Shown piece by piece: positions 3,644-28,588 of a DNA stretch of 28,993 nucleotides (position 1 is its first letter; every line of letters starts with the position of its first letter). The notes beneath the pieces were generated by a model. That model was not told the DNA's origin, did no database searches, and was given only the letters and a program-made list of their open reading frames with translations. Both the position numbers and the translations under genes were made by a program. Origin of the DNA: a virus; IMG/VR virus record IMGVR_UViG_3300025697_000110, positions 1 through 28,993 of that record. One strand, 5' to 3'.

Positions 3644-4753
3644 TTATTTATTCAAACTTTCTCTGATCTCAGCTAACTTCACAACCACACTTGGAGGCTG
3701 AACTTCCTCTTTCAGCCCAAGCAAGGCATTGAAGCGTACTTTCTCAGCTTCGCTAAAACCACCAATCCTCAATTCATCGCAGAGTGCCTCAACGACTCTA
3801 CTTCTTTCTTGTTGATGAGCTGACCGGATCGACTCCGGTAACTCGGTCAATTTACCTCGGCTTTCTTTGGGGAGGATATTCCCGGAAGAAAGTGCTTTTA
3901 ATTCATCTGTCGTGAAAGAAGTCTCCTGTGACATGACCTCTATCGACTCTGTGTTCTCTGAAATAAACGCTTTTGACAGGTCATTCTTCGACATTGCCAA
4001 TTTCCTGGTCTCCCAGAATTTATCAACGTAACTCTTGGCCCATGCCAAATAGGAGGAATGAAACTTGGACAAGGCGATATCAAGCTTGGAAATTACCGTG
4101 CTCTCGTCCACTGCCCACCATATATCCCAGATAGTCTCATGCAAGGCATCCATGATATTCCAACCGCCGTTGTATGCCTCAATGGTCGCAAGGCTCTCAT
4201 CAAAGTCCTCGGCTCTTGCCTCACCTGTATTCAGTGTTCCATCTTTATTCAACAATTCCTCCGGAAGAGACGGAATCTTGATGTCCTCGTCCCTTACTTC
4301 GGTGATTTCAGCCGTTTCATTGGCTTCAAACGTGACTGGACTAACCTCATAAAGCTTGACCTCAGTTATCTGCCTGATCCCCTCAACCTTCTTGCTCTGG
4401 ACCGGTATGAAGCCAAAGCTCAATGTGTCAATGACCCCAGCCTTCAGATTTTTGAAGACATCATCAGCCTTCGTTACCCCCTTAGTCAGCAATCCACGGA
4501 CGAATAAGCCTTTGCTATCTTCCCGGATTTCGATGATCTTACCTATCGGTTCATCCATATTGTGATTCCACAATATTTTGATCCGATCTCCCCTTTCTGA
4601 GATGGTTTTCTTAAAGGCTCCTGACCTGAAGCTGGATGAGTAACTATCCACGGTATCAAAAGTTGTTGCATATCCTTCGAAGATGTAGTCCTCATCGCCT
4701 TCTGCCCGAATCTCCGGGGTGAAGTTCCTATACTCTACTTTTTTCTTTTTCAT
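3644..4753 (-). CDS. HK97-family prohead protease with a C-terminal extension
   Basis: 369 residues starting MKKKKVEYRNF. The ATG at 4753 has a GGAGGAGG ribosome site just upstream; a GTG seven codons earlier (4774) has none. The protease domain fills about residues 10-150: FEGYATTFD, GAFKKTI, the catalytic-histidine segment ILWNHN, and the catalytic-serine segment LSFGF, followed by LYEVSPVTF. This is the S78-type serine protease that cleaves the capsid delta domain during head maturation (family knowledge). The remaining ~210 residues are acidic and helical with no recognised domain; in related phages such tails act as scaffolding. Its place between portal and capsid genes is classical. Confidence 0.92.
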   Translation of the reverse strand: MKKKKVEYRNFTPEIRAEGDEDYIFEGYATTFDTVDSYSSSFRSGAFKKTISERGDRIKILWNHNMDEPIGKIIEIREDSKGLFVRGLLTKGVTKADDVFKNLKAGVIDTLSFGFIPVQSKKVEGIRQITEVKLYEVSPVTFEANETAEITEVRDEDIKIPSLPEELLNKDGTLNTGEARAEDFDESLATIEAYNGGWNIMDALHETIWDIWWAVDESTVISKLDIALSKFHSSYLAWAKSYVDKFWETRKLAMSKNDLSKAFISENTESIEVMSQETSFTTDELKALSSGNILPKESRGKLTELPESIRSAHQQERSRVVEALCDELRIGGFSEAEKVRFNALLGLKEEVQPPSVVVKLAEIRESLNK

Positions 4754-4827
4754 GCTTTCCTCCTCCTTAATCACGTTTTCTAAGAGATTACGATTATTAT
4801 TGACTTATTTTAAATATTATGCTAAGC

Positions 4828-7809
4828 TTAAGCTTCAGTACTAAAAATACAAGAGCATCGGCAATTAGAAACAATGATATCATTAGCAATTAACCATCCA
4901 TATGGTGTCTCGACATCATAAACGAAACCGGAGTGATTAAAATGATTAACCGAAACCACATCATCAAATTGTACGTTTCTGGACTTCCCATTCAAGAGAT
5001 CCTTAATATTGCTGGCATCAAAACACATACTTTTTATGAAATCATTAATGAAGCTAAAATCCAGAGAAGAGCTTCTACTAATTATAGAAATAGGAATGAA
5101 ACTATTGATGGTAATTCCGAGAGGATTATCTCCCTTTATAAAAGTGGAGAAAGTGTCAATGCTATTTCCAGAATATTCAAAACTTCCAGGACTCCCATCT
5201 ATAGAATTCTTAAACAAGGCGGTATCACACTCAAGACCCAATCTGAACAAGAACTTATTAAGTGGAAAGAACTTAAGAAAGATAGAAAGCTGGTTGAGAA
5301 CAAATGCTCGGCTGCTTGGAATGCACGCCGAGGTAATGTTGACACTATCATCACCAAAAATAGAAGAGCCGATTCCACATTTGATGCTCAAAACAAAATC
5401 TACACATTCGAGAATGAGCTCTCCGCTTATTTCCGGAATGCTGGATTTGCTATTAATCAACAGTGGCATGTCGGCCCCTACAATCTCGATATCGCCTTTG
5501 ATAAATTTCCCATCGCCGTGGAAATCAGTGGAACCTATCCTGCGGAATTCATTAAACTTAACGGTAGAAAGCGCACTAAATATTTGCTCAATGCAGGCTG
5601 GGCTATCATTTTCATACGTTGGAAAAGAACCAGCAAAAGGAAAATCATTAACTGGCCTTTTGATATCTCTTTTGCAGGCAATCAAGTTATCTCCCTCGTT
5701 AATAGAATCAGCAGAGATAAGACCTTGCTCGGAAAATATGGGGTGCTTACCGGTCACCCTGAGTATATTCCCACTGTTAGTTACGATCTCGACGGCCTTC
5801 CCATGATAGAGTGATTTCATAGCTTTAATAAATTCACCTTCAATTTTTGTACCTGGTAAAAAACAATTGACACGGTCAGCAGGCATTAGGCACTGGTCAA
5901 GGGGGTAAAGAGGCCCTTTTGTAGCACCTGCCTTAATAGAAAAACGTTCATCGATTTTTACTGCTGGTTCAGCTGCTCGTTCTACATGTATTTTTCTGAC
6001 CTCAAAGCCAGAATTAGCCCACTTTTTATGAGTCGCACCAGTTGATTTAGCTCCTACATATTGTCCAGCACTTCCAGCTGTACCAGTTATAGTACGAGAC
6101 AAACGCAAAGCACGCTCAGCAGAAAAAATACCTGCATCCGTTATCGCTTGCTGAAGCTGAGCAACAGTTAACGCCTCATCAATCCCATTCTGAATCTGAG
6201 AAATCAACTGGGAAACGGTCGTGCTCTCAATAAGGGATTTCTCTGTGAGGACAATAGCCTCCTCAGCAAAATAATCACTGATTAGTTTCTTAGCCTCATC
6301 ATCAACTGATCGTTTTTCAATAACTACTTGATCTGCTGCTGTCAATGCATAGTCAAGCGTCAGTTCATCGTAGACGTCGATCCAGTCTTGCCATGAATCA
6401 GATAAAAGTTCCTCAACATCTATCATGACAATACCTGGATTTATATCTGCATTAAGAGCATCAAATATAATGTCCTGCTGATCGTCAAGCAACCCTTTAA
6501 TGTCTTTGCTCCTCAAAATAGAATAGGCCTCTCGGTCTTCAGCCTCCCCATCTAAATCCCTTATCTGCATCAACTTTGGCCTGTAGGAGAGAGGCTGACT
6601 ACGTACTTCAGGGTCTACCCCGGTCTTGACCTCAGTCTCAGCTTTAGAACTGGCAACATGTGAGTCTTCCCATCCATCGTATTCATCGATTCCTAACTCA
6701 AAGATCCTATTCAGCTGATTAACTGGAACACCCATCTCAAATAATGTCTTAGCTGTCTTCGAACGTTCAAGCAATGCTCTGCGTATAGCTGGGATAGCAT
6801 TAAGGTTATATGCGATTTTGTTCTCACCAAGCTCTTCGTCAAAGAAAAAATTAAAGGTATCTTTCACATCATCAAGCAATGGTATAATTTTCTGAAACCA
6901 GAATATTAACTCTGACGTTTGATAGTTATTATACGTAGAAGCTTCCTGTGTACCTGCATATTGAGGCGGTACACCAAACACAATGAATATCTCATCCCTG
7001 TTGGACCTCCGGCTATTAAGGAAATCCATTTGCACAGGAGTCAAGGAAGTACGGATATATTTTGCTTCACTACCTAATACACCTAATTTCCTCGCTTTGC
7101 TGGGTCCGGTATATTTTTCATTGAGCCTATCAGCTACTGCATCCGCTTCTCCTTGAGTACGAAACTCACGCTTGAATGAAAAATAACCGTCTAAAACACC
7201 TCGGTTCTGCATTGCAGCTTTATTCCAGTCAAGCTGATCCACATCTATATCAACCGTTTTTGATACAGCCTGCAATGGTCCTATACCCATATAAGGGTTT
7301 GAAGGATCAAAGTACATGATATGAATGATTTCATCCGGTTCATAATCGACTTTTGTCGACATATCAAGAGCATAGCCTCTGATCCATTTAGAGATGTCCT
7401 TTGATAACAGAGGCTTTAATCTATCAGGAGATACTGGCCATATTTCAGCCGTTCTCCCTCCAGCTTGCACTGTTTTTAGAAAGGCATTACCACTCAGCTC
7501 AAGCCATGACACCAATAACTCAAAAACATTCTGCCTCGATATACTTGGATTCGGCCTATTCAACACATCAGAAAGATAATGATCTATAAACTCACCTTCC
7601 GGATTTACTACACCCCATGGGACAGAAGCAGCTGACTTCGAGATCAGCGTCACTGCCCTGTAGACCCAGCCATTAGCTTTATATCCGTCTTTGACAGCCT
7701 TCCGGACAGTCCAGTTATTATATACAGGCATACCGGTCTTGATCGCATAATAATTTGAGAAAGCCAAATTACGTGTAACGAAATTCTTTATTGATCCTAA
7801 TATATTCAT
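4828..7809 (-). CDS. Portal protein fused to a MuF-like head domain, interrupted by an intein
   Basis: A 993-residue precursor. About residues 1-390 are an HK97-type portal (WVYRAVTLISKSAASVPW near the start; DEIIHIMYF; IPAIRRALLERSKT), the dodecameric ring through which DNA is packaged. About 430-659 match the MuF minor head family: ALRLSRTITGTAG, HKKWANSG, VRKIHV, and the terminal motif NCRC. An intein replaces the peptide bond inside that motif: it begins at C649 and ends at N982, so the spliced product joins ...PADRVN to CRCSC... and is 659 residues long. Portal and MuF are usually separate proteins; here they are one chain. TerL lies just upstream, with an eight-base gap. Failure to splice would leave a bulky insert in the conserved NCRC end. 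Confidence 0.92.
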   Translation of the reverse strand: MNILGSIKNFVTRNLAFSNYYAIKTGMPVYNNWTVRKAVKDGYKANGWVYRAVTLISKSAASVPWGVVNPEGEFIDHYLSDVLNRPNPSISRQNVFELLVSWLELSGNAFLKTVQAGGRTAEIWPVSPDRLKPLLSKDISKWIRGYALDMSTKVDYEPDEIIHIMYFDPSNPYMGIGPLQAVSKTVDIDVDQLDWNKAAMQNRGVLDGYFSFKREFRTQGEADAVADRLNEKYTGPSKARKLGVLGSEAKYIRTSLTPVQMDFLNSRRSNRDEIFIVFGVPPQYAGTQEASTYNNYQTSELIFWFQKIIPLLDDVKDTFNFFFDEELGENKIAYNLNAIPAIRRALLERSKTAKTLFEMGVPVNQLNRIFELGIDEYDGWEDSHVASSKAETEVKTGVDPEVRSQPLSYRPKLMQIRDLDGEAEDREAYSILRSKDIKGLLDDQQDIIFDALNADINPGIVMIDVEELLSDSWQDWIDVYDELTLDYALTAADQVVIEKRSVDDEAKKLISDYFAEEAIVLTEKSLIESTTVSQLISQIQNGIDEALTVAQLQQAITDAGIFSAERALRLSRTITGTAGSAGQYVGAKSTGATHKKWANSGFEVRKIHVERAAEPAVKIDERFSIKAGATKGPLYPLDQCLMPADRVNCFLPGTKIEGEFIKAMKSLYHGKAVEIVTNSGNILRVTGKHPIFSEQGLISADSINEGDNLIACKRDIKRPVNDFPFAGSFPTYENDSPACIEQIFSALSTVKFNEFRRIGSTDFHGDGKFIKGDIEIVGADMPLLINSKSSIPEISGELILECVDFVLSIKCGIGSSIFGDDSVNITSACIPSSRAFVLNQLSIFLKFFPLNKFLFRLGLECDTALFKNSIDGSPGSFEYSGNSIDTFSTFIKGDNPLGITINSFIPISIISRSSSLDFSFINDFIKSMCFDASNIKDLLNGKSRNVQFDDVVSVNHFNHSGFVYDVETPYGWLIANDIIVSNCRCSCIFSTEA
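4864..5865 (-). mobile_element. Intein in the portal-MuF gene (334 residues)
   Basis: Splicing blocks are clear. Block A begins CFLPGTKIE (Cys1 codon 5865..5863). Block B is GNILRVTGKHPIF (5772..5734) with the usual T-x-x-H. Block F/G is YDVETPYGWLIANDIIVSN ending at 4864, followed by Cys as the +1 residue. The penultimate residue is Ser rather than the usual His. Only about the first 70 and last 45 residues look like a Hint domain. The ~220 residues between are serine-rich and have no LAGLIDADG or HNH signature; they are the antisense reading of the plus-strand gene at 4942..5814. The insertion point, inside the conserved NCRC motif, is typical of inteins. Confidence 0.92.
4942..5814 (+). 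CDS. Vsr-like homing endonuclease encoded antisense inside the intein
   Basis: 290 residues starting MINRNH at the ATG at 4942, with GGAG at 4930..4933 eight bases upstream; a GTG at 4933 is in frame but less likely. Two helix-turn-helix segments lie near residues 7-40 and 55-92 (IIKLYVSGLPIQEI; ERIISLYKSGESVNAI then SRTPIYRIL). Near residues 145-230 is a Vsr-like nuclease domain: ENELSAYFRNAGF, then VGPYNLDIAF and IAVEISG carrying acidic catalytic candidates, then RKRTKYLLNAGWAIIFIRW. Vsr-like homing endonucleases are known beside inteins and introns. The gene sits wholly within the intein on the opposite strand and in codon register with it. Its last ~25 residues are antisense to intein block B, so that tail may be dictated by the intein. 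It would be transcribed against the late genes. Confidence 0.85.
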   Translation: MINRNHIIKLYVSGLPIQEILNIAGIKTHTFYEIINEAKIQRRASTNYRNRNETIDGNSERIISLYKSGESVNAISRIFKTSRTPIYRILKQGGITLKTQSEQELIKWKELKKDRKLVENKCSAAWNARRGNVDTIITKNRRADSTFDAQNKIYTFENELSAYFRNAGFAINQQWHVGPYNLDIAFDKFPIAVEISGTYPAEFIKLNGRKRTKYLLNAGWAIIFIRWKRTSKRKIINWPFDISFAGNQVISLVNRISRDKTLLGKYGVLTGHPEYIPTVSYDLDGLPMIE

Positions 7810-24288: not shown

Positions 24289-25701
24289 ATGTTGGAGAAT
24301 GCCTTATTTTATGCCGATTTAGGACTGTCAGTGATACCTATCTTCGGCATTATTGATAATCATTGTGATTGTGATGACGGTATAGATTGCAGTAATCCTG
24401 GAAAGCATCCGAGGGTAAAGTGGAAAATCAGTAGCAAAAAATGTTTATCTAAATCTCAACTCGAGGCATTGTGGGAAAAGCATCCTATCAGCAATGTAGG
24501 CATCGTGACAGGGGATATTTCTGGGATAGCTGTTTTAGACGTAGATGGTGATGAAGGTGTTGAGTCGCTTAGAAAAATTGGTATCAAACTTAAAGACTTG
24601 CCTGAGACACCTACATCAAAGACTGGCGGTGGAGGATATCACTTTATTTTTAAAATGTCCTCCATTGCCAAAACCAAAGCTGGTGTTCTCAAGAATGTAG
24701 ATATCAGAGCTAACGGAGGGATGATCGTTGCTCCGCCGTCTATTCACAAATCAGGCAATATCTACACATGGATTGCAGGCAGAGCTTTAGGAGATGTCGA
24801 TATAGCTGAATTTGATTTTTCCATTCTTGAGTCATCAGCGAATGAGAATAAGAAGAAGAAAAAGAAAAAGAAAAAGAACCTGTCGTGGTTTGAGGATTGT
24901 TTATCTGGTGTAGGCAAAGGGCTCAGAAATGACTCTGCTACAAGACTTGCCGGGAGGTATTTTTCTTTTGGGATGAGTAAGTTAGAAGTACGATTCATAC
25001 TTAAATCATGGAATGAGGCAAATAATCCATCTTTACCTGCTTCAGAGATAGACACTGTCATTGAATCTATTGAGACTATGGAACAAGATAAAATTGGATC
25101 TCACAATAGTGACATGATATCCATTGCATTAGGAATTCATCTCGATTCAGTCAGTCGTATATCTGGAGATGAACCGCAGTATGTCCTAAATTTTGATGAA
25201 GGAAAATGTACTATGACAGTAGCACAGATGCTTAGTCCATTATTATTCCGGCAAAGCGTCGCTGAAGGAACAAATGTTCTCATCAGAAAGCTGTCATCAA
25301 AAACAACTCCTACGCATGATATGATGGCTCACTCAGTTATGAACTGTGCTGAAGACATAGATGCAGGGATTGAGGCTACCAATAGAGGAGAAATAATTGC
25401 CTTATTAAAAGACTTTATCAGAGGACAAAAGATCATACCTGACATGGATCAGGGAGATGAAATTCCTCATCATGGATCATTCCAATTTGAGGAAAAACTC
25501 TGGATATCGATAGAAGACCTCGTGCATAGAGGTGGACAAAAGTGGGGAATGAAGATTCCCATGAAGATGATGGCTCAACGGTTACGAGCTATAGGAATGG
25601 ATAAGAAATCATTTAAATTTTCTGATGGAAGCAACAAAACTATGTGGAATATCGATCCAGACAACTTGAAGGAGGAACCAGGAGACGAATTAGATGAGTG
25701 A
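24289..25701 (+). CDS. Primase-polymerase (archaeo-eukaryotic PrimPol) with C-terminal domain
   Basis: 470 residues. The N-terminal PrimPol fold has VIPIFG, a zinc-type insert (CDCDDGIDCSNPGKHP), NVGIVTGDISGIAVLDVDGDEG with metal ligands D84 and D86, GGGGYHFIF with H118, and RANGGMIVAPPS. A run of ten lysines (188-197), coded by an AAG/AAA microsatellite, links to a helical C-terminal domain of the PriCT kind. It would prime, and perhaps polymerise, phage DNA. AAGGGGAGAG precedes the ATG. It overlaps the helicase gene by eight bases. Confidence 0.9.
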   Translation: MLENALFYADLGLSVIPIFGIIDNHCDCDDGIDCSNPGKHPRVKWKISSKKCLSKSQLEALWEKHPISNVGIVTGDISGIAVLDVDGDEGVESLRKIGIKLKDLPETPTSKTGGGGYHFIFKMSSIAKTKAGVLKNVDIRANGGMIVAPPSIHKSGNIYTWIAGRALGDVDIAEFDFSILESSANENKKKKKKKKKNLSWFEDCLSGVGKGLRNDSATRLAGRYFSFGMSKLEVRFILKSWNEANNPSLPASEIDTVIESIETMEQDKIGSHNSDMISIALGIHLDSVSRISGDEPQYVLNFDEGKCTMTVAQMLSPLLFRQSVAEGTNVLIRKLSSKTTPTHDMMAHSVMNCAEDIDAGIEATNRGEIIALLKDFIRGQKIIPDMDQGDEIPHHGSFQFEEKLWISIEDLVHRGGQKWGMKIPMKMMAQRLRAIGMDKKSFKFSDGSNKTMWNIDPDNLKEEPGDELDE

Positions 25702-28588
25702 TGAAATGAGGATTTACGGGCCGCCTGGATGTCTATCAAAAGATACTTGCTTGGCTTTTAGAAGAGGAAAACGACATTCAGGTCGAGTTACAACTATAGA
25801 AGAAGCTTACTATAGATTTAATCGCATACGAAGAAGGGATTCTGAAGGATGGAAATATTTATGGAATCCGGGAATAGAGACTCAAGTGATGTCGTTGATT
25901 TCAGAAGGTGTATTGCGGTTTTCTGCAATTGATCAAATCGTTATTTCAGGAATAAAAGAGACATATCAGTTAACGGTTGTATCAGGAAAATCAATCCGTG
26001 TAACTTATAAGCACCCATTCAGAGTGCCAAATAGTTCACCTAAAGCAGATGCTGAGGGATTCACCAAACTATATGATTTAGAAGCCGGGGATAAAGTGCT
26101 GTGCAGAAAATTTAAAATGCCGAGAGAGGAAGTCATAGAGTCTATTGAATTCTATGGAAAAGAAGAAACCTATGACATCGTCATGAAGTTACCGCAGTGC
26201 AATTATGTAGCTAATGATTTCATAGTTCATAACACTGGGAAAACTACATGGGCAGCAAAGAAAGCTGTCGAGTATGCTGAAAAATATGGAGGTGATCAGG
26301 TATCGATGTGCTCATTGACTAATACAGCGATAAAGGAGGTAGTAGATAGGAAGATCTCAATTCCAAGGAAGAATATAACGACGCTGCACAGCAGGTGCAA
26401 GAGGGCATTATTCGCTGGTCCTCCAGCAGAAACAAATATCAAGGCTTTTATAGATGAGAATAAAAAATGGTCGAGTGCATCCGGGAGTCAGCCATGCTTA
26501 CCTTCACATATGGTTAGACATCTCCGTGATAAGAGCCTGAGTGAGGATATCCTCTCTGGAGGACAGATGAGTCTGTTTGAGCATGCACAGATATTAAGGC
26601 AGCAGATGATCCCTAAAGATCGATGGCCTGAATTGACGAGGAAGTTTTCTGAAGTCTGGGAAGATTGGTGCGAACAAACAGGCCAAAATGATTTTACTGG
26701 TTGGTTAGAGACCATCTTAAAAAATAACATATTGCCTCCACAAAAAGTCATCTTTGTCGACGAAGCACAGGATCATTCACCGCTTCAACTTGCGGTTGTC
26801 AGATCCTGGAGAGCAGAAAGAGTTTATTTAATCGGTGACGATGACCAATGCCAGCCTCATGAAACTCAAGTACTCACGGACAGAGGATATAAGCCGATAG
26901 AAGACCTGAATGAATCTGAGGATAGGCTCGTGACTTATGATAGGGCGCACTCTAATGTCATAGGTTTTAGAAGAGGATACTCATTTAAAAAAATTAAACA
27001 TGAGTATACTGGGTATATCTATGAAGTCACAGCAGGGAAAAAATCTACAAAGACAACTGCTGGTCACATCTGGGAAGTGAGGTGGACGGAGGAAGCTAAA
27101 TCTAAATATGTAGTATATCTTATGAAGAGGGATACTCGTTATAGAATAGGACAATGTTCATTGTTAAATTCTGAAAAATCACTTAATTTAGGTGTCAGAG
27201 CCAGAGCAGAAAAAGCAGACGCATTATGGATTCTACGCATCTGCGATTCTAAATTTGAATCCACCGAATGGGAGAGATTGTTTTCAGCTAGATACGGTGT
27301 CTTAGAGACATTGTTTGAGATTCCTATCTCTGAAAGAACCAATGGACTTTATAGAAGTAAGAAACATCTTGCGGAATTTTGGGAGAAAGCAAAAATATTA
27401 AAATATGATAATTTACCTGATTTATCAAATCCATTTTGGGTAAAAGGAGATAATGCACGCAATAAAAGCGGGGCTCAAATATTTTCAGTTGTAGCTGCTA
27501 ATCTCTTCAGCGAAATTATGTCAGTCCCTGTCCATTCAGAAGAAGATGAAAGAAAAGTTGAGTGGTATCCTTTGACAGTGACTAAAGAAAAATATACCGG
27601 ATATACTTATGGGTTAAATGTCAATTATTATCATCGATATGTCGCAGATGGTATTATTACACATAATTGTCTCTATGAATGGTCTGGATCAGTTCCCGGC
27701 GAGTTCTTCAAAAAGACAGCTAACCTGGTAGGTGAGGAAGTTCTATCACAGTCATACAGAGTCCCTCGCACAGTGTTTAAGGTAGCAAATCAGTTAGTCA
27801 AAAGAATAAGCCAGAGAAAGGATAAGGAATATCATCCAAGAGATTTTGAAGGATCGGTGAACTATCTTGATTATTCGATCTCCGACGCATATTATGACGG
27901 GAATCTTCCGGATGGATTGCTCGAAAATCCTGATGAGACGTATATGATCATTGCATCTTGTGCTTATATGCTTAACTCAATCATAGATAATTTAAAAATG
28001 AGGCGAATCCCTTTTCACAACCCATATAGACCAAGTATGAGCAAGTGGAATCCTCTCCGAACTTTCATACGTTGCATTGAGGCGTATGAAGTCGGGGACA
28101 GGATGTGGACTGGAGATGAAGCAGCGACATGGGCGGAGATCTTACGATCAAAGGATGTGTTTAATCCAAGGATGAAGCAGCGATTCTTAGATCTATGTAT
28201 CAGCTTGGGAACTTCAGAAATCATGGAACGGGATATTGATAAATACTTTCTTAAGAGGCATAAAAGTCGCATCCTCAGGAAAGACATAACTTTCCTTAAA
28301 GAAGAGAAAGCCTATTCTAAAGAGTTTGATTGGGACTATGCATGGGACGTTCATGGATCTGGAGATTATAAACCAAGACTAATCGTTGGAACGGTTCACT
28401 CAGTAAAAGGAAGTGAAGCCGACAACGTATATATTTTTCCTGACTTATCTGCGGCTGGATTAAACGAATATCTCGGAGTCGGGTCTGATAGAATTCATCG
28501 GCTATTTTATGTGGGAGTAACCCGAGCAAAGAAAAATTTATTTCTATGCACTCAAGGCAGCCAATATCGAGCCATACAATGGGACTAA
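25694..28588 (+). CDS. UvrD/Rep-type superfamily 1 helicase with two inteins
   Basis: 964-residue precursor, 523 residues after splicing. The helicase starts MSDEMRIYGPPG, is cut by intein 1 (13-180), and continues TGKTTWAAKK, so the splice restores the Walker A GPPGTGKT. Motif II is VIFVDEAQDHS. IGDDDQ is followed by intein 2 (386-658) and then CLYEWSG, restoring the GDDDQ-x-x-Y-x-W motif III of UvrD. VGTVHSVKGSEADNVYIF and LFYVGVTRAKKNLFL are motifs V and VI. It is encoded directly after the primase-polymerase, so it is probably the replicative or recombinational helicase. Both inteins must leave for activity. Confidence 0.93.
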   Translation: MSDEMRIYGPPGCLSKDTCLAFRRGKRHSGRVTTIEEAYYRFNRIRRRDSEGWKYLWNPGIETQVMSLISEGVLRFSAIDQIVISGIKETYQLTVVSGKSIRVTYKHPFRVPNSSPKADAEGFTKLYDLEAGDKVLCRKFKMPREEVIESIEFYGKEETYDIVMKLPQCNYVANDFIVHNTGKTTWAAKKAVEYAEKYGGDQVSMCSLTNTAIKEVVDRKISIPRKNITTLHSRCKRALFAGPPAETNIKAFIDENKKWSSASGSQPCLPSHMVRHLRDKSLSEDILSGGQMSLFEHAQILRQQMIPKDRWPELTRKFSEVWEDWCEQTGQNDFTGWLETILKNNILPPQKVIFVDEAQDHSPLQLAVVRSWRAERVYLIGDDDQCQPHETQVLTDRGYKPIEDLNESEDRLVTYDRAHSNVIGFRRGYSFKKIKHEYTGYIYEVTAGKKSTKTTAGHIWEVRWTEEAKSKYVVYLMKRDTRYRIGQCSLLNSEKSLNLGVRARAEKADALWILRICDSKFESTEWERLFSARYGVLETLFEIPISERTNGLYRSKKHLAEFWEKAKILKYDNLPDLSNPFWVKGDNARNKSGAQIFSVVAANLFSEIMSVPVHSEEDERKVEWYPLTVTKEKYTGYTYGLNVNYYHRYVADGIITHNCLYEWSGSVPGEFFKKTANLVGEEVLSQSYRVPRTVFKVANQLVKRISQRKDKEYHPRDFEGSVNYLDYSISDAYYDGNLPDGLLENPDETYMIIASCAYMLNSIIDNLKMRRIPFHNPYRPSMSKWNPLRTFIRCIEAYEVGDRMWTGDEAATWAEILRSKDVFNPRMKQRFLDLCISLGTSEIMERDIDKYFLKRHKSRILRKDITFLKEEKAYSKEFDWDYAWDVHGSGDYKPRLIVGTVHSVKGSEADNVYIFPDLSAAGLNEYLGVGSDRIHRLFYVGVTRAKKNLFLCTQGSQYRAIQWD
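25730..26233 (+). mobile_element. Mini-intein in the helicase Walker A motif (168 residues)
   Basis: Starts CLSKDTCLAF (Cys1 codon 25730..25732); block B is SIRVTYKHPFRV; it ends YDIVMKLPQCNYVANDFIVHN at 26233, with Thr as the +1 residue. Penultimate His is present. There is no endonuclease domain, so it has probably lost its means of spreading. The exteins GPPG and TGKT join to the ATP-binding loop. Confidence 0.93.
26849..27667 (+). mobile_element. Intein in helicase motif III with GIY-YIG-like nuclease (273 residues)
   Basis: Starts CQPHETQVLTDRGYKPIEDL and ends YHRYVADGIITHN, with Cys as the +1 residue. Between the splicing blocks lies KYVVYLMKRDTRYRIGQC, then GVRARAEKADALWILRI and TEWERLFSARYG, which follow the GIY-YIG pattern: Y-V-Y...R-I-G, an Arg helix and a catalytic Glu. 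GIY-YIG domains are rare in inteins compared with LAGLIDADG; the call is from motif spacing. Confidence 0.85.

Follow-up and report, generated by a model that had tools for sequence, protein, structure and literature searches.

The stretch of viral DNA analysed here (28,993 nt, hereafter the window) carries on its minus strand a gene for a portal-MuF fusion protein, in which Pfam recognised the portal part (Phage_portal, E 1.9e-55). The gene is interrupted by an intein that splits the NCRC motif of MuF, a motif assigned by inspection and in relatives, between VN and CRC. The junctions are VN/CFLPGT and VSN/CRCSC, with the codon of C1 at 5863-5865 and that of N334 at 4864-4866. The insert is in frame, has a nucleophile at position 1 and ends in Asn followed by Cys at the C-junction. 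Intein_splicing (PF14890) matched this frame with 40 bits, above the cut-off, and no other Pfam family did so at 1e-3 or better. The penultimate residue at the C-terminal end is Ser and not His, which counts against reading the insert as a splicing intein. A first-pass annotation of the window had described a stop-free intein frame of 334 residues with blocks A, B, F and G, and its coordinates hold (Table 1).

Table 1. Features of the portal-MuF locus in window coordinates (HEG, homing-endonuclease gene).
Feature	Position	Strand	Remarks
Portal-MuF fusion host gene	4828..7809	-	ORF of 993 aa, stop-free
N-extein	5866-7809	-	
C-extein	4831-4863	-	CRCSCIFSTEA
Intein	4864..5865	-	334 residues, C1 to N334; PF14890 above gathering score; predicted Hint fold
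Block A	5827..5865	-	CFLPGTKIEGEFI; outside HEG
Block B	5737..5754	-	TGKHPI (T38/H41); opposite HEG codons 266-271 (YGVLTG)
Blocks F and G	4864..4941	-	GFVYDVETPYGWLIANDIIVSN; opposite HEG leader and ribosome site
Putative antisense HEG	4942..5814	+	290 codons, intact; ATG at 4942, stop at 5814
Shine-Dalgarno site of HEG	4930..4933	+	GGAG, 8 nt 5' of ATG; relatives mostly TTGGAGGTCGTAAACATG
First HTH of HEG (residues 4-37)	4951..5052	+	helices in AlphaFold2 model; resembles gamma-delta resolvase HTH
Second HTH of HEG (residues 59-92)	5116..5217	+	HTH_7, 2.3e-10
Vsr/I-Bth0305I-like nuclease domain (predicted)	5392..5811	+	conserved E157, Y180, N181, D183, E194, R211
Zone selected in both frames	5461..5814		intein residues 18-135; HEG codons 174-290 and stop; codon-position and fourfold tests
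Zone with intein frame relaxed and HEG frame selected	4978..5460		intein residues 136-296; pLDDT about 30-50 over most

On the plus strand, the same annotation had placed a gene of 290 codons that spans 87% of the intein, codon opposite codon, and has a GGAG ribosome site, two HTH motifs and a Vsr-like nuclease domain. This gene, a putative homing-endonuclease gene (HEG), was recovered with all of these elements. Pfam matched HTH_7 to its product with 40.9 bits, above the cut-off, and MTES_1575 at 5e-5, below the cut-off. Among 42 aligned members, the nuclease residues D183, E194 and R211 are kept in 42/42 each and E157 in 40/42. The H and D of the EDxHD motif of I-Bth0305I are kept only in part across these 42 members, and the His that follows the AVE motif in 28/42 is absent in the HEG of the window. 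A promoter scan of the HEG yielded nothing beyond chance, and PHROGs holds no dedicated family for it, giving mostly partial HTH or DNA-binding matches.

Elsewhere in the window, a UvrD-like helicase gene (25694-28588, plus strand) carries a second intein at about residues 385-658 (Q/CQPHETQ...ITHN/CLYEW, PF14890). No antisense gene accompanies this intein, the insert of which (YVVYLMKRDTRYRIG...) is without a Pfam nuclease match.

Structures were predicted with AlphaFold2, for the nuclease by using 42 relatives. The HEG model has a mean pLDDT of 89. Its residues 151-290 superpose on Vsr with Z 10.4 (rmsd 2.7 over 114 residues), residues 154-258 on I-Bth0305I (PDB 3r3p) with Z 10.0 (rmsd 2.4 over 92 residues) and residues 1-39 on the gamma-delta resolvase HTH with Z 6.3. 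Foldseek E-values for the HEG are weak (best 0.014), and the structural argument rests on the Z-scores. The intein model is confident for most of residues 1-67 and about 91-133, as well as from about 296 onwards, whereas 134-283 are disordered; 105 residues spanning 1-334 match the splicing domain of the Mtu RecA intein with Z 13.9 and rmsd 1.5. In these models the minus frame is a Hint fold and the plus frame is a Vsr-like nuclease, in agreement with what had been proposed for the two frames.

IMG/VR was scanned with nuclease peptides and, independently, with intein peptides. Sub-alignments served as seeds, the full diverse alignment (alignment A1) being too divergent for that purpose. At least 240 loci with the nuclease were obtained, which fall into 149 clusters at an identity of 90% and 99 clusters at 50%, and the intein-peptide scan gave at least 494 confirmed relatives. 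The codon-aligned antisense frame is stop-free in 240/240 loci. Intein peptides by themselves retrieved 139 loci, of which 138 carry the antisense HEG and 135 have it as one uninterrupted ORF; PF14890 matched 35/36 members. Of the two frames, found intact in the window by the first-pass annotation, neither is freely broken in relatives. Protein searches revealed the same layout under MuF/minor-head genes in phages of Vibrio, Idiomarinaceae, Aggregatibacter, Pseudomonas, Cronobacter, Escherichia, Klebsiella, Pantoea, Edwardsiella, Gordonia, Mycobacterium and Rhodococcus. In none of the records opened is the antisense gene annotated, the head gene alone being listed there. A scan of a genome contig collection gave a single locus, from Atlantibacter, and an E. 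coli genome set gave no match. The element of the window is one member of a large, widespread and unannotated family and not unique.

A few copies (L062/L063, L179) have a nonsense codon in the nuclease and an open intein frame, the asymmetry expected if the phage needs the intein and not the nuclease. L160 and L140 are frameshifted or decayed, and L163, retrieved through a block-B-like peptide, is an intein without HEG. L203 was considered as a split nuclease and rejected, as its stops lie merely upstream of its start. At another locus (L089, IMGVR_UViG_3300024232_000016, 3778-6489, minus strand), upstream of the intein the portal-MuF polyprotein additionally has DUF5661 and a 2'-5' RNA ligase / Acb1-like (anti-CBASS) domain.

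The distribution of the element was compared among related phages. Among P. aeruginosa phage records, 24 are without the intein and 14 with it. Phage phi297 is without exactly 807 bp at GNSIN/CKCSQ, and its flanks are 95-98% identical to those of the intein-bearing P. aeruginosa CF/BR phages; the intein-free alleles restore the host sequence exactly. For the phage of the window itself, a query with its N-extein found no empty-site relative in IMG/VR. Most Kagunavirus genomes are also without the intein. Two genomes of the genus, KMB36 (L015) and Snoke (L100), carry diverged members at different MuF motifs, TST(T)/C...N/CRARDG and HPN/CRS, and the Snoke nuclease shares 77% identity with the one in a Pantoea phage. 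In the Gordonia phages Vivi2 and Kewpiedoll, the exteins are 99.7% and 96.8% identical and the inteins, at one common site, 35.5%. L057 and L058 differ at 33% of nucleotides in the extein versus about 4% in the intein. In L076 (2131-3879, minus strand) a member lies in a non-MuF protein (GDC/C...N/CVIAAMMHY), the extein of which matches nothing in Pfam; the element has entered at least one target gene besides MuF. Judged from these sequence comparisons, the empty sites, allelic intein swaps and extein/intein incongruence point to the pattern that homing leaves.

The plus-strand protein could instead be a real nuclease that is not a homing enzyme, for example one that excludes competing phages or autoregulates head genes. 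We consider this improbable. Although HTH-nuclease proteins may have other roles, the gene was found solely inside inteins at every locus retrieved, and the homing enzyme I-Bth0305I is among its nearest solved nucleases. Inteins are hard to lose, so persistence alone is no proof of drive; however, the exact empty sites, the allelic swaps and the varied insertion sites fit homing, and the occasional nonsense copies with an intact intein fit a homing life cycle.

Selection on the two frames was assessed in 10 pairs of relatives by codon positions and fourfold-degenerate sites. In this register, position 1 of an intein codon is position 3 of a nuclease codon, and vice versa. Changes fall mostly at intein position 3 in the N-extein (p 1e-37), block A (2e-5), block F/G (7e-5) and the C-extein (7e-8). 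In the middle of the overlap they fall mostly at nuclease position 3 (p 2e-8), and in the Hint-N overlap they are balanced between the frames (p 0.7) with position 2 depleted. Fourfold sites of the intein strand change at 0.60 in the extein versus 0.07-0.25 over intein residues 18-296. Those of the nuclease strand change at 0.35-0.45 along the disordered or relaxed part of the intein versus 0.18 along its folded part (p 1e-4). Both frames are under selection: the ends of the intein are under intein selection, the middle is under nuclease selection, and the overlap of Hint domain and nuclease core is under both. The stretch of intein residues 136-296 resembles a spacer that is disordered and largely free of stops.

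The AlphaFold models and the substitution test agree on which bases are used twice. Shared selection had previously been limited to block B and the end of the nuclease; the dual selection was confirmed, but this limit proved too narrow, since the shared zone takes in about 118 codons (intein residues 18-135, window 5461-5814) plus a short segment ahead of where the HEG starts. The signals are interlocked as well. In most members the HEG leader is TTGGAGGTCGTAAACATG or near it, and its complement encodes H-V-Y-D-L-Q of intein block F; thus, block F also supplies the Shine-Dalgarno site and the start codon. The HEG start is displaced by a few codons in the window and L002. At the other end of the gene, T-x-x-H-P of block B lies opposite the last beta strand of the nuclease. 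Because the block B His codon is CAY, only Val or Met is possible on the opposite strand, and column 268 of the nuclease holds Val in 31 and Met in 11 of 42 members. In addition, intein residues 105-130 (window 5476-5553) contain a conserved motif, DFHGDG.F..G.V.IV, that lies exactly antisense to the nuclease core YNxD...AVE. This stretch has a confident AlphaFold2 fold, and its fourfold sites suggest selection in both frames.

Should the nuclease alone be functional, the minus frame would be a stop-free relic and MuF would be made unspliced, as a read-through or truncated product. The non-canonical residues of some members (A1, S1, C-terminal Q) and the relaxed middle of the intein frame are compatible with that idea. 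It is nevertheless very unlikely, as selection acts on the intein frame in block A and F/G, both ends of the Hint fold are modelled with confidence, and joining at the junction restores the NCRC/NCKC motif of intein-free MuF alleles.

The codons TTA, CTA and TCA in the HEG would be stop codons in the intein frame. Not one of the 20 Leu and 18 Ser codons in the HEG of the window is among these three, for which the probability is about 9e-7 under the codon usage of the window. Pooled over the nuclease genes of 58 loci, 0 were seen versus 361 expected, a figure that is not the product of independent trials because the loci are related. The other two antisense frames of the intein contain 42 and 14 stops. 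As a negative control, the antisense frames of the helicase intein (about 26870-27670) contain 17, 10 and 23 stops. The open antisense frame is not chance. Long antisense frames in the codon-aligned register do exist, particularly in GC-rich phages, but that the intein alone is functional and the antisense frame an accident of the register is hardly credible given the missing TTA/CTA/TCA codons, the 10-23 stops per antisense frame in the second intein, the nuclease and HTH domains of known type, in which D183, E194 and R211 are invariant, the conserved Shine-Dalgarno site and ATG, and a middle that evolves by HEG codon position, a result of the position test that already refutes it.

We therefore return to a mobile intein whose splicing and mobility functions would lie on opposite strands of the same DNA, a reading that we hold to be very probable, expression, splicing, cleavage and homing being deduced. 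The first-pass annotation had put splicing and mobility on opposite strands in the same way, and both predicted folds and the kept frames support it. A minus-strand precursor would be translated through the intein, and the Hint domain, formed by residues 1 to about 67, about 91-133 and 296-334, would draw the ends together over a disordered loop, splicing at VN/C...N/CRC to give mature MuF. The middle of the intein frame seems to be only a tolerated, stop-free loop. The HTH-HTH-Vsr-like protein would be translated independently from the plus strand, and may recognise and cut the CRC-motif DNA of intein-free MuF. Its mRNA would run antisense to late mRNA of the head genes, so early or low-level production of the protein is probable. 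Cutting, in the conserved DNA around the MuF CRC codons of intein-free phages, would take place in mixed infection, and repair from the intein-bearing copy would insert the whole element.

Claims that two folded and conserved proteins overlap at length in antisense are contested, being based as a rule on a single genome or a single ORF of unknown function. Since both partners here have named folds and measured selection, and at least 99 clusters share one register, the limits of dual coding become directly measurable. The element stands unannotated in many phage genomes, including those of cultivable phages of E. coli, P. aeruginosa and Gordonia.

Fractured genes, which Dassa reportedly described in 2009 in a paper cited by PMC10448857, are split inteins with a free-standing Vsr-like endonuclease gene. 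They too tie a Vsr-like nuclease to an intein in phage-type DNA. However, their host gene and intein are in two parts with the nuclease gene between, whereas here host gene and intein form one unbroken ORF of 993 aa, with which the nuclease shares its bases. I-Bth0305I, a phage EDxHD nuclease, is intron-borne. It resembles the HEG product in the fold of its catalytic domain and in joining a DNA-binding part to a nuclease, but the H and D of EDxHD are only partly kept in the HEG and the DNA-binding domains differ.

Inteins with an in-frame endonuclease (HEN) domain (PI-MtuI RecA, PI-PfuI, TliVMA) also have a Hint domain, insert in a conserved motif of a needed gene and code their nuclease within the element between blocks B and F. 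That nuclease, usually LAGLIDADG, is translated as a same-strand part of the intein, whereas the window has a separate opposite-strand gene overlapping the splicing blocks; instead of a HEN in frame between B and F, we found PF14890 only and disorder at residues 134-283. As its layout differs from both, the element is kept out of the canonical in-frame and fractured classes. The intein configurations recognised in a review are full-length, mini and split, none of them antisense (PMC7765530), and intein HEN domains are said to occupy one conserved in-frame site (PMC6801210). The intein in the minor head gene of the Kagunavirus vKMB36 was reported without its nuclease (PMC11162368); this intein and that of Snoke, annotated as plain inteins, are members of the antisense-HEG family. 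No published description of an intein with an antisense nuclease gene was found in the open-access literature, in line with the earlier remark that no described intein is known to be built this way.

A parallel on the opposite strand is I-DsqI, an expressed antisense homing endonuclease of a nuclear group I intron that cuts DNA (PMC9548176). Such introns likewise have a mobility gene on the strand opposite the splicing element. Because their splicing partner is RNA, there is no second protein frame, whereas both strands code for protein in the window. We consider it likely that the family forms a hitherto undescribed class of mobile inteins that is widespread among tailed phages of both Proteobacteria and Actinobacteria and has splicing protein and homing nuclease on opposite strands of the same base pairs. 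Block F would be complementary to the ribosome site and start of the HEG, and block B to the C-terminal strand of the nuclease, in an ancient antisense pair of known folds. As a fourth intein layout, it would let the nuclease be expressed apart from the host gene and decay while the intein stays, although deletion of the nuclease would be impossible without hitting the splicing blocks.
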